From Sphingobacteriales bacterium 44-15 (GTDB lineage: Bacteria > Bacteroidota > Bacteroidia > Chitinophagales > Chitinophagaceae), in assembly GCA_001899685.1 (NCBI GenBank), contig MKWG01000011.1:334938-398937 (forward strand): a stretch of 64,000 bases of DNA, written 5' to 3'. Under the pieces are notes generated by a model. The model was not told the DNA's origin and made no database searches. It worked only from the letters and a program-made list of their open reading frames with translations. The position numbers and the translations under genes are program-made. Of the stretch, positions 48,778 to 55,121 are shown in pieces; the first letter of the stretch is position 1, and each line of letters opens with the position of its first letter.

Positions 48778-48814
48778 GAGATTTACGATTTTCATATGGC
48801 AAGCAATCGTTGAG

Positions 48815-48845
48815 GCCACTCCTGTCCAGGGGTGGCATTTTTTTT
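48815..48845 (+). terminator. Terminator of the small lipoprotein gene
   Basis: GCCACTCC (48815-48822), a 6-base loop, GGGGTGGC (48829-48836) with one G-U pair, then A and eight T residues. It ends the lipoprotein transcript before the aromatic operon promoter. Confidence 0.88.
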
Positions 48846-48868: not shown

Positions 48869-48897
48869 TTGTTGAATAGTTTTTAATCTTATTTTTG
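48869..48897 (+). promoter_or_regulatory. Promoter of the aromatic amino acid operon
   Basis: TTG at 48869-48871 and TATTTTTG at 48890-48897 fit the -33 and -7 (TAnnTTTG) boxes with an 18-base gap. Transcription should begin within a few bases of the leader peptide ATG at 48905, making the leader peptide mRNA almost leaderless. The his leader uses the same -7 octamer. Confidence 0.75.
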
Positions 48898-48904
48898 CTT
48901 CGCA

Positions 48905-48988
48905 ATGAAGATCTCAAAAGCATACCGTTTTTTTTATTTTTATTTCTACTTTACCGGTAGACCGGGATTGCTTTTGTTGAAAAAATAA
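48905..48988 (+). CDS. pheL: Phe/Tyr leader peptide (eight consecutive aromatic codons)
   Basis: A 27-codon frame: MKISKAYR, then F-F-Y-F-Y-F-Y-F (48929-48952, eight aromatic codons in a row, plus Y7), then TGRPGLLLLKK and TAA at 48986-48988. It lies between a clear promoter and a terminator hairpin, 88 bases before pheA. Its Phe and Tyr codons make the ribosome a sensor of charged tRNA-Phe and tRNA-Tyr, the two end products of the genes behind it. The peptide itself needs no function. The symbol pheL is used by analogy. Confidence 0.92.
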   Translation: MKISKAYRFFYFYFYFTGRPGLLLLKK

Positions 48989-49042
48989 AACAAATAAAGA
49001 AGTTCAACATAGTCAGTCCCGGCACAAAGCCGGGATTTTTTT
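48962..49042 (+). promoter_or_regulatory. Phe/Tyr attenuator: antiterminator and terminator
   Basis: Antiterminator: 48962-48970 (CCGGGATTG) pairs with 49014-49022 (CAGTCCCGG, one G-U), stacked on a second stem 48975-48981 (TGTTGAA) with 49003-49009 (TTCAACA). Terminator: 49017-49023 (TCCCGGC), loop ACAAA, 49029-49035 (GCCGGGA), seven T residues. The two share 49017-49022, so only one can form. A ribosome stalled in the aromatic run leaves 48962-48981 free (read-through); one that reaches the stop at 48986 covers them (termination). Pairings seen; mechanism inferred. Confidence 0.9.
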
Positions 49043-49076
49043 GTGGCTGAACCCCCTAAAACACAGGTATTATTAT

Positions 49077-49994
49077 ATGACATCTACAACCAGCCTGATA
49101 AAGCCGGAAGAACCAGAGCAGTCCCCGGGCGATGCTCCCGGCAGAAAAAAAGGATCCCGCAATGCAGTAGCAGTGGCTATCCAGGGATATGAAGGCAGCT
49201 TTCATCATTTGGCGGCCAATCAATTTTTTGATAACAAGGCAGAAGTCATTTGCTGCAATACGTTCCGGGAGGTAGTAAAAGTGGCCTCCGACAAAAAGCG
49301 AAGCGACGGCGGGGTCATGGCAATTGAAAACTCTATCGCCGGCAGCATTCTCCCCAATTATAACTTATTACAGAAAAGCAAGCTTAAGATAGTAGGTGAA
49401 ATTTACCTGCATGTCGGGCAAAACCTGATGGTAAGCCCGGGTGTAAAGCTGGAAGATATAAAAGAGGTACACTCCCACCCCATGGCGCTGCTGCAATGTA
49501 TTGAGTACCTCGACAAGCACGACTGGAAGCTGGTGGAAACAGAAGATACTGCTTTAAGTGCCAAACTTCTGCACCAGCACAAAAGCAAGCATATAGCAGC
49601 CATTGCCAGCACCCTCGCTGCCAGGCTTTTCCAGTTGGATATACTGGCCCCCAATATTCATACGCAAAAGAATAACTATACCCGCTTCCTGATCCTGCAG
49701 CACGAAGACCTTGCTGAGATCATAGAAAATGCCAGCAAGGCTTCTGTCAATTTTCATACCGATCATTCCCGCGGCAGCCTGGCCAGGGCATTGACCCGCA
49801 TTGCTGACGGCGGCATCAACCTCAGCAAGCTGCAGAGCTTTCCCATTCCCGGCTCGGATTTCAGGTATTCCTTTCACGCAGATATGGAGTTTGACTCGCT
49901 TACCCGGTTTTATGATGTGATCAGGGATCTGAAAGATTATACGGAAGACCTTAAAATTTACGGCGTATACAAAAAAGGAGAACATTTCGCTTAA
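49077..49994 (+). CDS. pheA: Prephenate dehydratase
   Basis: Converts prephenate to phenylpyruvate for phenylalanine. The start at 49077 (MTSTTSLIKPEEPEQ) is the first after the attenuator. 305 residues with the catalytic TRF motif in NNYTRFLIL and an ACT regulatory domain from about 225. The usual ESRP motif of the Phe-binding ACT loop is LQSFPIPG here, so feedback by Phe may differ. Monofunctional: no chorismate mutase domain, as that is fused to DAHP synthase downstream. Confidence 0.94.
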   Translation: MTSTTSLIKPEEPEQSPGDAPGRKKGSRNAVAVAIQGYEGSFHHLAANQFFDNKAEVICCNTFREVVKVASDKKRSDGGVMAIENSIAGSILPNYNLLQKSKLKIVGEIYLHVGQNLMVSPGVKLEDIKEVHSHPMALLQCIEYLDKHDWKLVETEDTALSAKLLHQHKSKHIAAIASTLAARLFQLDILAPNIHTQKNNYTRFLILQHEDLAEIIENASKASVNFHTDHSRGSLARALTRIADGGINLSKLQSFPIPGSDFRYSFHADMEFDSLTRFYDVIRDLKDYTEDLKIYGVYKKGEHFA

Positions 49995-50035: not shown

Positions 50036-51223
50036 ATGATTGCAACGGCTAAAAGACTAGAAGGAATAGGTGAATATTATTTTTCCAGAAAGCTGAGAGA
50101 GATCGATGAGCTTAACCGGCAGGGAAAAGCGATCATTAACCTGGGTATTGGCAGCCCCGACCAGCCGCCCCACCCCGATGTCATTAAAATACTGCAGGAA
50201 GAAAGCGCAAAACCCAACGTGCATGGCTACCAGAACTATAAAGGCGCGCCGGCATTGCGCAAAGCCATAGCCGGCTGGTATGATACCTGGTATAATGTAG
50301 CGCTCGATCCCGAAACAGAGATATTACCGCTTATCGGCAGCAAAGAAGGTATTATGCATGTGTGCATGACCTACATCAACGAAGGCGATAACGTATATGT
50401 GCCCAACCCCGGCTACCCTACTTACCGGAGTGCGGCAACACTGGCAGGAGGGAATATTATTGAATATACGCTTAGTGAAAAAAACGGGTGGCTGCCTGAT
50501 CTTGCAGCATTGGGATCTCTGGTAAAAGCCAATGACAAAGGCGATGGCAGGGCATCCATTTTCTTTGTCAACTACCCCCATATGCCTACCGGGCAACTGC
50601 CGGCATTTTCTTTTTTTGAAGCGCTGGTAGCCTTTGCAAAAGAAAATAACCTTTTGCTGGTGCACGACAATCCTTACAGCTTTATTCTTAATAATAAGCC
50701 GTTGAGCATACTGGCGGCAGAAGGCGCAAAAGAGGTTGCGGTAGAATTAAACTCATTGAGTAAATCGCAGAACATGGCCGGATGGCGGATCGGGATGCTT
50801 TGCGGGGCAAAACAGCGTATCGAAGAAGTATTGCGTTTTAAGAGCAATATGGACAGCGGTATGTTCCTGCCTATGCAGCTTGCTGCCGCAAAAGCGCTAT
50901 CGCTTGGTAAAGACTGGTACGACAGCGTGAATGCAGTGTACAAAAAAAGAAGGATAAAAGTATTTGAGCTGCTGGAGCTGCTGAACTGTACTTTTTCCAC
51001 CGGGCAGGCCGGCATGTTTGTGTGGGCGGCGATACCGGCCGGTTATGAAAATGGGTATGCACTGAGCGATGAAGTATTGTACCGGTCCGGCGTATTTATC
51101 ACTCCCGGCGGTATATTCGGCAGCGCCGGTGATAACTACGTGAGAGTAAGCCTCTGCTGTACGGAAGAAAAGATACAGGAAAGCATTGACAGGATAAAAG
51201 CAACATTGAAAAGTAAAAATTAA
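50036..51223 (+). CDS. Class I/II aminotransferase
   Basis: A 395-residue PLP aminotransferase. The lysine is in LNSLSKSQNMAGWRIG; the NxP-type segment is VNYPHMPTGQ. It sits between pheA and tyrA, 41 bases after pheA and 3 before tyrA, so it is likely the aromatic or prephenate/aspartate transaminase that finishes Phe and Tyr. Related families include LL-diaminopimelate and aspartate aminotransferases; position favours the aromatic role (inference). Confidence 0.85.
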   Translation: MIATAKRLEGIGEYYFSRKLREIDELNRQGKAIINLGIGSPDQPPHPDVIKILQEESAKPNVHGYQNYKGAPALRKAIAGWYDTWYNVALDPETEILPLIGSKEGIMHVCMTYINEGDNVYVPNPGYPTYRSAATLAGGNIIEYTLSEKNGWLPDLAALGSLVKANDKGDGRASIFFVNYPHMPTGQLPAFSFFEALVAFAKENNLLLVHDNPYSFILNNKPLSILAAEGAKEVAVELNSLSKSQNMAGWRIGMLCGAKQRIEEVLRFKSNMDSGMFLPMQLAAAKALSLGKDWYDSVNAVYKKRRIKVFELLELLNCTFSTGQAGMFVWAAIPAGYENGYALSDEVLYRSGVFITPGGIFGSAGDNYVRVSLCCTEEKIQESIDRIKATLKSKN

Positions 51224-51226
51224 GCC

Positions 51227-52075
51227 ATGTTCCGGACCATAACGATTGTAGGAGTAGGTCTCATCAGCGGTTCATTCAGCCTGATACTGAAAAATAAAAA
51301 ATTAGTCGAGCGTGTCATTGGCGTAAGCCGGACAGAACAGAGCCTGAAGCGGGCTATGGAGCTGGGTATTATTGACGAAGCGCTGCCGCTGGAAGAGGCG
51401 GTAAAGCAAAGCGACCTGATCTATGTGGCCATTCCTGTGGACGCTACCATACCTATGATGCGGCGCATTATGGACCTTATTACCGACAAGCAGATCGTTG
51501 CGGATGCAGGTTCCACTAAAAAAGCGTTGTGTGAAGCGTTGGCCCACCACCCCATGAGGCACAGGTTCGTAGCTACCCACCCGATGTGGGGTACAGAATA
51601 CAGCGGCCCTGAAGCGGCAGTGCTTGATGCTTTTGCCGGCAGGACATGTGTGATCTGTGAAAAGGAAAAAAGCGACCCGGATGCCGTGGAAACCATGGAA
51701 AAGATATACAAGCTGCTGGGTATGCATGTAACCTATATGGATGCCGACAGCCACGATATGCATGCGGCCTATGTGAGCCATATATCCCATATCACTTCCT
51801 TTGCCCTGGCCAATACCGTACTGGAAAAAGAAAAAGAAGAAGATGCCATATTTAAGCTTGCCGGTGGCGGCTTTGAAAGCACCGTGAGACTGGCCAAAAG
51901 CAGTCCGGCCATGTGGCTGCCCATCTTCAGGCAAAACCGGGAGCATGTACTGGATGTACTTAATGAGCATATCACGCAGCTGAGAAAGTTCAAGAGCTGT
52001 ATAGAGAAGGAAAACTATGAATACCTGAATGAGCTTATGGAAAACGCCAATAAAATAAGCAGGATCATAAAATAA
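51227..52075 (+). CDS. tyrA: Prephenate dehydrogenase
   Basis: Oxidatively decarboxylates prephenate to 4-hydroxyphenylpyruvate for tyrosine. The NAD fold begins ITIVGVGLISGSFSL. Catalytic and substrate histidines are in VATHPMWGTEYSGP and SHISHITSFALAN. The length, 282 residues, is that of a monofunctional enzyme. It follows the aminotransferase by 3 bases. Confidence 0.94.
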   Translation: MFRTITIVGVGLISGSFSLILKNKKLVERVIGVSRTEQSLKRAMELGIIDEALPLEEAVKQSDLIYVAIPVDATIPMMRRIMDLITDKQIVADAGSTKKALCEALAHHPMRHRFVATHPMWGTEYSGPEAAVLDAFAGRTCVICEKEKSDPDAVETMEKIYKLLGMHVTYMDADSHDMHAAYVSHISHITSFALANTVLEKEKEEDAIFKLAGGGFESTVRLAKSSPAMWLPIFRQNREHVLDVLNEHITQLRKFKSCIEKENYEYLNELMENANKISRIIK

Positions 52076-52178: not shown

Positions 52179-53864
52179 ATGATGACATTTGAAGGGTTGG
52201 GTTTAGACGAGAGGTTGGTACAGGCTACCGATGCTTTAGGATTTACGCAACCAACGCCCATACAGGAAAAAGCTATTCCTGTTTTACTGAGTGGCACCAA
52301 AGACCTGGTGGGGTTGGCACAGACCGGTACCGGAAAAACGGCAGCTTTTGGTTTACCATTGCTGCACCTGATCAACGAAAAAGACAAATTTCCACAAGCG
52401 CTGGTAGTATGCCCTACAAGGGAGCTCTGCCTGCAGATCGTGAATGAAGTAGAGCTTTTTAAGAAATTCATGCCCGGCATGCATGTAATCGCAGTGTATG
52501 GAGGCTCCTCTATTGGTATGCAGATACGGGATCTGAAAAGAGGGGTGCAAATCGTAGTAGCTACCCCGGGAAGACTGATAGACCTTATTGAAAGAAAAGC
52601 TATTGACCTGCAGCAGATAAAATACGTGGTGCTTGATGAAGCCGATGAAATGCTGAACATGGGTTTCCAGGATGATATAGAATTCATTCTTCAGAACACG
52701 CCCAACAGGGAAAGCACCTGGTTGTTCAGCGCTACCATGCCGCCGGAGATCAGGAGAGTGAGCAAGAAGTATATGGAGCAGCCGGTAGAGATAACCGTAG
52801 GTAAAGTGAATACGGCGAACAAAAATATTGATCACCAGTATTATGTTACAAGCGCCCAGCTCCGTTATGAGGCGCTGAAACGGCTGATTGATTTTAATCC
52901 GGGTATTTACGGCATTATTTTTACACGCACCAAAGCCGATGCGCAAAACATTGCCGAAAAGCTTACCCGCGAGGGGTATGATATTGATGCGCTGCACGGC
53001 GATCTTACCCAGCAGCAGCGCGATAAAGTGATGGGCGAATTCAGGGACAAAACGCTGCAGCTCCTGATTGCAACGGATGTGGCTGCAAGGGGCATTGATG
53101 TACAGGGGATCACTCATGTGATCAACTACGAGCTTCCTGATGATGTGGAAGTATACACCCACCGCAGCGGCCGTACGGGAAGAGCAGGCAATACAGGTAT
53201 ATGTATGTCCATCATACATACCCGAGAAACAGGCAAGATCAGGCAGATCGAAAGAATGGTGCAGGTGCCTTTTCACAAGCTGGAAATACCCGCAGGCAAG
53301 GACGTATGCCGGAAGCAGTTCTATCATTTCATGGATAACCTGCTGCAACTGGATATAGATGATACCGGCTATGAGCCTTATATCCCTATGCTGGAAGAAA
53401 AGTTTGCCGATATATCCAAAGAGGAAATACTCAAAAGGCTGGCAGCCCAGGAATTCAACCGTTTTCTGAAATATTACGAGAACGCTGAAGATCTCAATGT
53501 AAGGGAAAGAGTGCGTGAACCCCGTGGTGGAGAGAGCAGATCATCTTATGGAGACAGACGGGATGGTGACCGCAGAAGGGATATGAATGGACGTGGCAGG
53601 AATTATGCCGCAAACGGAGGCGAGTATGCCAGGCTTTTTGTAAACCTCGGCACAAAAGACGGATTTTATAAAGCCAGCTTTTTACAATTCATTCTTGACA
53701 TGAGCGATCTCCGCAAAGAGGTGCTCGGAAGAATAGATATGAAGGAGATGAACAGCTGGATCGAGGTGGATAAAAAAGCTGCGGGGCAGATGATACGGTC
53801 TATTGACGGCAAAAAATACCGGGGCAGAAGCATCAGGATGAATGATGCGGACAGCAGGAGATAA
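52179..53864 (+). CDS. DEAD-box RNA helicase with DbpA-type C-terminal domain
   Basis: A 561-residue ATP-dependent RNA helicase. Motifs: AQTGTGKT, PTRELCLQI, VLDEADEML, SATMP, TDVAARGIDVQ and HRSGRTGRAGN. A basic Arg/Gly/Asp linker (residues about 445-480) joins a C-terminal RNA-binding domain (YARLFVNLGTKDGFYKASFLQF ... YRGRSIRMNDA), similar to DbpA/CsdA tails. It likely acts in ribosome assembly or cold shock. It lies between tyrA and the DAHP synthase gene and may have its own promoter. Confidence 0.95.
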   Translation: MMTFEGLGLDERLVQATDALGFTQPTPIQEKAIPVLLSGTKDLVGLAQTGTGKTAAFGLPLLHLINEKDKFPQALVVCPTRELCLQIVNEVELFKKFMPGMHVIAVYGGSSIGMQIRDLKRGVQIVVATPGRLIDLIERKAIDLQQIKYVVLDEADEMLNMGFQDDIEFILQNTPNRESTWLFSATMPPEIRRVSKKYMEQPVEITVGKVNTANKNIDHQYYVTSAQLRYEALKRLIDFNPGIYGIIFTRTKADAQNIAEKLTREGYDIDALHGDLTQQQRDKVMGEFRDKTLQLLIATDVAARGIDVQGITHVINYELPDDVEVYTHRSGRTGRAGNTGICMSIIHTRETGKIRQIERMVQVPFHKLEIPAGKDVCRKQFYHFMDNLLQLDIDDTGYEPYIPMLEEKFADISKEEILKRLAAQEFNRFLKYYENAEDLNVRERVREPRGGESRSSYGDRRDGDRRRDMNGRGRNYAANGGEYARLFVNLGTKDGFYKASFLQFILDMSDLRKEVLGRIDMKEMNSWIEVDKKAAGQMIRSIDGKKYRGRSIRMNDADSRR

Positions 53865-54032: not shown

Positions 54033-55121
54033 ATGCAAGCGGTTGAAAACAATCCCAAAGCTGTAGTGCTGGAAAAGCTGAACAAAAAACCTCTTATTAT
54101 TGCCGGCCCCTGCAGTGCGGAAACAGAGGCTCAGGTGCTGGAAACAGCCCAGCGCCTGGCGAAGACCGGGAAAGTGGATATGCTCCGCGCCGGGATATGG
54201 AAGCCACGCACCCGCCCCGGGAGCTTTGAGGGAATAGGCACTAAAGGACTTCCCTGGCTGCAGCAGGCTAAAAAGCTTACAGGTCTGCCTACAACAGTGG
54301 AAGTAGCTACGGGAAAGCAGGTAGAAGACGCTTTGCATTTTGAGGTGGATATGCTGTGGATCGGCGCCCGTACCACGGTGAATCCTTTCAGTGTGCAGGA
54401 AGTAGCGGATGCGCTGCGGGGCTCGGATGTTCCTGTTTTAATAAAAAATCCCATCAATCCTGATCTTGAATTATGGACAGGCGCCGTAGAGCGCGTGGCA
54501 AAAGCAGGTATCAAGAAGATCGGGCTCATACATCGAGGGTTCAGCGCCTATGGCAATACGGAATACCGTAACGCGCCCATGTGGCACCTCGCCATTGAAA
54601 TGAAACGCCGTAACCCCGAGCTGATCATGATCAATGATCCCTCCCATATCTGCGGCCGCAGGGATATTCTGATGGATGTGGCACAAAAAGCCATAGACCT
54701 CGACTATGACGGGCTTATGATCGAAAGCCATATAGACCCCGATAATGCATGGAGCGATGCCAAGCAGCAGGTAACGCCGGAGCGCCTTGCGGAAATGCTT
54801 GAGGCCATTGTATGGAGAAAGGAAGATGTAAATTCAGAAGAATTTCATGCTGCCCTGGAAAAGCTTCGCCAGCAGATCAACCACCTCGATGATGAAATGA
54901 TGCAGATCCTCAGCCAGCGCATGAAGCTTGCTGAAAAGATCGGCTTGTACAAGAAAGAAAATAATATTACTATCCTGCAAACATCGCGCTGGAATGAAAT
55001 ACTGGAGAGGGCTTTTAACAGGGGCGAAAAGATCGGGCTGAGCAAAGAGTTCATCACCAAATATTTTGACGCAGTGCACATGGAGTCTATCAATCATCAG
55101 AATAAGATCATGAACGCCTGA
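54033..55121 (+). CDS. aroG: Bifunctional DAHP synthase - chorismate mutase (type II)
   Basis: A 362-residue fusion. Residues 1-260 are a DAHP synthase (PLIIAGPCSAET, GIWKPRTRPGSFEGIG, VLIKNPINPDLELW, MINDPSHICGRRD), which joins PEP and erythrose 4-phosphate to enter the shikimate pathway. Residues about 275-355 are an AroQ-type chorismate mutase (LEKLRQQINHLDDEMMQILSQRM, IGLYKKEN). The mutase end can act as a sensor of chorismate/prephenate. The fusion is typical of Bacteroidota. Confidence 0.95.
   Translation: MQAVENNPKAVVLEKLNKKPLIIAGPCSAETEAQVLETAQRLAKTGKVDMLRAGIWKPRTRPGSFEGIGTKGLPWLQQAKKLTGLPTTVEVATGKQVEDALHFEVDMLWIGARTTVNPFSVQEVADALRGSDVPVLIKNPINPDLELWTGAVERVAKAGIKKIGLIHRGFSAYGNTEYRNAPMWHLAIEMKRRNPELIMINDPSHICGRRDILMDVAQKAIDLDYDGLMIESHIDPDNAWSDAKQQVTPERLAEMLEAIVWRKEDVNSEEFHAALEKLRQQINHLDDEMMQILSQRMKLAEKIGLYKKENNITILQTSRWNEILERAFNRGEKIGLSKEFITKYFDAVHMESINHQNKIMNA

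Follow-up and report, generated by a model that had tools for sequence, protein, structure and literature searches.

Upstream of the prephenate dehydratase gene (pheA) in a Chitinophagaceae genome lies a short open reading frame rich in aromatic codons, which raises the question of whether, and how, this frame could control the aromatic amino acid genes that follow. The window analyzed is the whole 64,000-nucleotide stretch containing this locus. Of the loci fetched, the nearest one from a named organism belongs to Terrimonas sp. NS-102, with 80% PheA identity (these loci include the best 80 of 586 matches, and the window's own genome was possibly left out). The first-pass annotation had assigned positions 48869-49076, from the promoter to the last base ahead of the pheA ATG (49077), to an attenuator sensing phenylalanine and tyrosine. 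This interpretation is well supported by the sequence comparisons described below. The region is very probably a classical four-segment, ribosome-mediated Phe/Tyr attenuator of transcription, through which pheA-aminotransferase-tyrA would be transcribed less with Phe-tRNA and Tyr-tRNA both charged. The features of the locus are as follows.

48789..48845, + strand: intrinsic terminator for the preceding transcription unit, with the conserved flank CATATGGCAAGCAATCGTT (terminator scan, conserved copies)
48872..48897, + strand: likely sigma-A promoter of the Bacteroidota type, TTG near -33 (48872-48874) and TATTTTTG, an instance of TAnnTTTG (48890-48897)
48905..48988, + strand: leader peptide ORF, 27 codons from ATG to TAA, MKISKAYRFFYFYFYFTGRPGLLLLKK (sequence, ORF list)
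48911..48928, + strand: segment 1 (codons 3-8), partner of segment 2 in the protector hairpin, whose loop holds the control codons
48962..48981, + strand: segment 2, within the leader ORF, codes for PGLLLLK and pairs with segment 1 or 3
49003..49022, + strand: segment 3, pairs with segment 2 (antiterminator) and, by its 3' part, with segment 4 (terminator)
49015..49042, + strand: intrinsic terminator, 3:4 hairpin and seven T at 49036-49042 (terminator scan, covariation, folding)
49077..49994, + strand: pheA, prephenate dehydratase without a chorismate mutase part (best NCBIfam match 193.7 bits, under the cut-off of 219)
50036..51223, + strand: PLP-dependent aminotransferase (best NCBIfam matches to LL-diaminopimelate aminotransferase, under cut-off)
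51227..52075, + strand: tyrA, prephenate dehydrogenase (NCBIfam NF006307, over cut-off)
52179-53864: DEAD-box RNA helicase gene (NCBIfam)
54033..55121, + strand: DAHP synthase-chorismate mutase fusion (NCBIfam matches under cut-off)

The gene order pheA-aminotransferase-tyrA, proposed earlier from the translations, agrees with the NCBIfam matches to prephenate dehydratase, aminotransferase and prephenate dehydrogenase; among the genes from pheA to the DAHP synthase-chorismate mutase gene only prephenate dehydrogenase passes its cut-off. The aminotransferase is, judging by its context, a probable aromatic transaminase. The fusion gene belongs to the same pathway and is parted from tyrA by the helicase gene. 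In five other loci (L018, L024, L047, L054, L230) the end of a similar helicase gene was seen by eye upstream of the aromatic leader instead.

Codons 9-16 of the leader ORF (48929-48952) are eight Phe/Tyr codons in a row, exactly as the first-pass annotation had described, and the operon's product amino acids are thus those for which the short ORF carries a codon run. Runs of at least six F/Y/W codons occur only twice in all six frames of the window: the leader run, and six F on the minus strand near 51841, antisense within tyrA.

The RNA of this region can form three mutually exclusive pairings, segment 2 being common to 1:2 and 2:3, and segment 3 to 2:3 and 3:4. Folded apart, the antiterminator 2:3 (48962-49022) reaches -21.1 kcal/mol (z -5.3) and the terminator 3:4 (49010-49042) -16.0 kcal/mol (z -5.2), while the entire leader folds at -35.9 kcal/mol (z -4.1); in each case 0 of 200 shuffles were as good. 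For the protector hairpin 1:2 (48905-48988) the values are -15.3 kcal/mol and z -1.8, with 8 of 200 shuffles as good. Two exclusive folds with a seven-T terminator had been proposed for the locus. The stems, their overlap and the T run are all present, but the pairings are three, not two, as the 1:2 protector has to be added. A reading without any 1:2 hairpin was dropped, since cognate 1:2 energies and covariation over the relatives show this pairing. The location of segment 2 within the ORF could explain why the peptide tail PGLLLLK is conserved: the RNA rather than the peptide would be kept.

Conservation was assessed in two sets of pheA loci. The first set comprised 58 genomes, 35 of them with a PheA match, from which 30 loci were fetched; the second added 80 loci from named genomes, the best 80 of 586 matches. 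All loci with at least 150 nt upstream of pheA, 109 in total, were counted, and one (L107) was too short and was left out. An aromatic leader precedes pheA in 107 of the 109, so that the predicted leader frame with aromatic runs is indeed kept in relatives. The script found 105 of these leaders; two more (L047 and L054), missed by it owing to a window cut-off and a GTG start, were recognized by eye, and their terminators are unscored. L029 and L081 have pheA without a recognizable leader. At least six F, Y or W in ten residues were found in 106/109 real upstream regions, compared to 56 of 4360 dinucleotide shuffles (1.3%) and 9 of 1098 control stretches, and at least eight in 89/109 regions versus a single shuffle of 4360. 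Genomes of the same genus keep the leader with few changes. At the class level PheA was found in 42 of 149 genomes, and 30 of these loci were fetched, four repeating genomes already seen. A run of at least seven in ten was present in 21 of the 30 (17 with a detected terminator and four without), two had five in ten and seven had at most three, all as raw counts.

Covariation was studied in 114 leaders from 104 loci. This set excludes the second candidate ORF in each of L012 and L091 (no terminator) and in L030 (terminator present, judged a non-leader), as well as L045, where no terminator was detected. For 100 distinct terminators, 2:3 duplexes have a mean energy of -18.1 kcal/mol with the cognate partner and -13.8 with swapped ones, a cognate mean that none of 5000 permutations reached, and against shuffled segment 2 z is below -2 in 90/100. 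For 110 distinct leaders the cognate 1:2 mean is -13.7 kcal/mol compared to -10.8 for swapped partners, with 0 of 10000 as low. Pairing was further examined in an alignment of 52 rows (A2), hand-picked from 70 references with near-duplicate and divergent rows dropped; the 70 themselves were without minus-strand, tandem and other divergent loci. In A2 the paired fraction is 96.4% for 3:4, 70.1% for 2:3 (65% of cells in its inner helix) and 71.8% for 1:2, each above all 500 shuffles and every slid version.

Compensatory change, which the first-pass annotation had named as a check on the stems, is above shuffles on most measures in A2. Double-changed cells number 21 for 3:4 (3.3 in shuffles), 26 for 2:3 (15.1) and 82 for 1:2 (46.0), and no shuffle of 500 was as high in any of the three. 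The mutually exclusive antiterminator and intrinsic terminator thus both show compensatory change; out of five shuffle measures 2:3 fails one, the number of pairs with a double change (175 of 500 shuffles as high), and one slid control exceeds it (29 double-changed cells at -3 against 26). The 1:2 hairpin, weak in the single sequence, stands out from shuffles in the family on three of five measures; pairs with a double change (190/500) and further pair types (324/500) do not, and a slid control exceeds it on pair types (29 at +3 against 27). At one pair of 1:2, 28 rows of A2 have G-C and 20 have A-U. Mapped on a PheA tree with 48 proteins (four short PheA rows omitted), each state changes six times by parsimony, with 5-7 changes for G-C and 5-6 for A-U over bootstraps that had not settled; well-supported branches force only one and two changes, and related sequences are not independent. 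Two coordinated designs, read from the leaders, recur: AAAGCAUAC with UGCUUUUG, and GCAAAUACA with UGUAUUUGC.

A covariance model (R1, with rough E-values), derived from A2 and including the pairs of 1:2 and 3:4, was run on 116 genomes of the family, an even sample of a larger group. It matched one site in each of 75 genomes, while PheA was found, with the same settings, in 84 of the 116. As the model was trained on pheA leaders, the search is blind only as to place: 74 of the 75 sites adjoin PheA and share its strand, at positions between 32 nt within the start of the PheA match and 161 nt upstream of that start. The remaining site (L230) lies in a genome without a PheA match, its aromatic leader standing about 140 nt upstream of an ORF similar, on visual inspection, to the aminotransferase of the window. 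Ten genomes have PheA and no model match. In eight of them a leader is recognized by its ORF (G029, G284, G281, G289, G208, G275, G017, which is L027, and G025, which is L026), and two (G218, G247) have pheA with neither a model match nor a leader ORF.

The frame, the eight control codons and the conserved, covarying pairings before pheA can be read from the sequence; termination, and read-through in response to Phe and Tyr, would follow by analogy with classical attenuators. While a ribosome lingered anywhere within codons 9-16, 1:2 would be barred, so that 2:3 would form and RNA polymerase would read on. A ribosome that reached the stop codon would cover segment 2, allowing 3:4 to form and transcription to end, and in an untranslated leader 1:2 would form and transcription would likewise end. 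The leader may therefore act as an OR gate for the two amino acids, because shortage of either would stall the ribosome. The control codons are placed so that a stalled ribosome could free segment 2 and a terminating one the terminator. The last control codon begins a median of 10 nt before the 5' side of segment 2 (5-95% range 7-14; 114 leaders), the duplex search having started after this codon, so that distances below 3 were impossible. Between the end of the stop codon and the terminator lie at least 15 nt (median 24, maximum 49 nt, in the same leaders). A ribosome is described, in a part of PMC4833913, as covering as much as 12 nt past the stop codon, and the spacing of at least 15 nt is therefore compatible with ribosome cover.

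The mixture of Phe and Tyr codons bears on which amino acids are sensed. Tyr codons could be neutral filler in a Phe run, the codons being U- and A-rich, with starvation for Phe alone relieving termination. Such an arrangement would resemble E. coli pheL, where only Phe is used, and would fit the excess of Phe over Tyr codons (641 versus 404 over the 114 leaders) and the identity of the last control codon, which is Phe in 90/114. It is nevertheless unlikely: 112 of the 114 leaders have two or more codons for each of Phe and Tyr, these are mostly interleaved along the runs inspected, and tyrA lies downstream in the same direction. A metabolite- or protein-sensing riboswitch, owning the terminator and the hairpins beside an incidental aromatic ORF, would produce equally strong structure z-scores. 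We consider it highly improbable, given the aromatic ORF in nearly all loci, the fit of the spacing to a ribosome, and the His-rich leaders before hisG and Trp-rich ones before trpE in the same genus; moreover, an Rfam scan of the whole window gave no match, and hence no riboswitch family, at the gathering threshold.

The role of 1:2 is touched by loci in which the attenuator is doubled. Two leaders, each with its own terminator, were found in 10 of the 109 pheA loci, six from Chitinophaga or its kin (L027, L092, L093, L094, L096, L098) and four from Hymenobacter (L095, L097, L099, L100); G275 also has two leaders, and L238 is among the serial Phe/Tyr attenuator loci. In all ten scored tandem loci the cognate 1:2 of the upstream leader is weaker than the median with swapped partners. 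Together with the insignificance of 1:2 in the window sequence taken alone, this would suit a device without a protector, where an untranslated leader is read through by default and termination occurs only with a ribosome on segment 2. We regard that as quite unlikely, as 1:2 covaries over the single-leader loci and the state of the pair described above changes about six times by parsimony. The four-segment attenuator with its protector hairpin remains the preferred reading.

The upstream terminator, the T run of which ends near 48845, leaves about 60 bases in which the leader promoter must lie. The sole promoter-like element between this point and pheA is TATTTTTG, followed by seven bases and the leader ATG. 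A motif definition given in a part of PMC7366714 places TAnnTTTG in the -7 region; the start of transcription thus likely falls no more than a few bases from the ATG, judging by promoter spacing, and the ribosome would probably start close to the 5' end of the RNA. A sigma-70 promoter scan of the locus gave nothing useful, the promoter type being wrong for the host. In 69 of 84 Chitinophagaceae-type leaders, TAnnTTTG ends 3-10 nt ahead of the ATG (at 7 nt in 36 of them), but in none of 30 other leaders, the division into the two types following a hand-made list. The same spacing occurs in 0/62 ORFs of the window and 3/497 ORFs of the loci; many of these control ORFs are no true genes or lack their own promoter, and a fairer control is the 18 that have the motif, three of them in range. 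The earlier suggestion of nearly leaderless reading is therefore likely to hold for the window locus and fits the spacing in most leaders of its type, but not in all leaders. In the same genome the trp leader lies seven bases from a one-mismatch form of TAnnTTTG, and the his leader, with a gap of 18 bases, would be an exception. In B. thetaiotaomicron about 3.7% of 5' UTRs are shorter than 10 nt, and the same part of PMC7366714 reports leaderless or near-leaderless mRNAs as rare and classical Shine-Dalgarno (SD) sequences as absent from Bacteroidota mRNAs; for F. psychrophilum the leaderless share is 5.5% according to a section of PMC9723704. A broader picture may tentatively be drawn, although we hold it somewhat more open to doubt than to belief: Chitinophagaceae would use near-leaderless attenuators with selected promoter-ATG spacing, the first ribosome (70S or SD-free) loading on the emerging 5' end in step with RNA polymerase, with the Phe/Tyr leader as a two-input OR gate doubled into serial attenuators in Chitinophaga and Hymenobacter. 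A leader both conserved and near-leaderless would offer a small reporter in which SD-free initiation, keeping pace with transcription, can be tested.

Further elements were observed in the window and its relatives. At the window edge, a second attenuator with the leader MNIYTHHHHHTLPKG (38-85) precedes hisG, a likely terminator being seen by eye at about 123-148. Leaders with four or five His in a row were found before hisG in all 11 loci inspected, ten belonging to the same genus and one to the same order, and a Trp leader (YWWWHTN) before trpE in nine of ten same-genus loci (L152-L160). In the tenth trpE locus (L161) no Trp leader was found, and the stretch is possibly misplaced. Among ten regions upstream of ilvD, one (L175) has an Ile/Val-rich leader, one (L168) a possible leader and the other eight none. 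At the terminator upstream of the Phe/Tyr leader, CATATGGCAAGCAATCGTT is followed by a GC hairpin, the loop of which is often GUUUCUAC, and a T run. One copy of the CATATGGCAAGCAATCGTT element was found in 11/12 same-genus genomes (at most two mismatches in 25), and one to four copies, with differing neighbor genes, in 25/113 family genomes (one mismatch to an 18-mer). Two stretches scanned gave no Rfam match to it near the gathering score, and the element may be the 3' end shared by a family of small RNAs.

Attenuation in bacteria was reportedly treated for many phyla by Lopatovskaya in 2010. In the enterobacterial Phe leader a run of Phe codons and alternative hairpins precede pheA. The Rfam model of this leader (Phe_leader, RF01859) has a full-length match in the window at 48912-49044, with 30.9 bits, below the gathering threshold of 55; the window leader differs in its interleaved Tyr codons, and the window pheA is unfused to chorismate mutase. 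Widely conserved in Chitinophagaceae, the Phe/Tyr leader is without an Rfam entry of its own, and no prior account of its Phe/Tyr residues, three pairings or tandem copies was found in the open-licence literature. For annotators, the short ORF before pheA is given an identity.

Within the phylum, leader-peptide attenuation has already been reported: a section of PMC9723704 describes strong clues for it before amino acid operons of F. psychrophilum, with structured elements before pheA and hisG that are present in other Flavobacteriaceae and have no Rfam hits. The pheA element of that species shares with the window element the phylum, the gene and the kind of mechanism proposed; the section contains no leader sequence, residues or pairings. 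In the part of PMC7298713 on the trpL attenuator of Sinorhizobium meliloti, the RNA 5' end starts with the leader ATG, a likeness of arrangement in a Trp-sensing, alphaproteobacterial system. The tandem attenuators of Salmonella mgtCBR, as described in a part of PMC3641672, place two short ORFs in series, like the pheA loci of Chitinophaga and Hymenobacter, but control other genes, and the window locus has a single attenuator. The window locus is thus a further instance of leader-peptide attenuation in Bacteroidota, from another family of the phylum. To the known cases it adds covariation of three alternative states, the use of Phe together with Tyr in nearly all leaders and the tandem copies in ten loci, and it provides a worked family-wide case with a covariance model that finds the leader.
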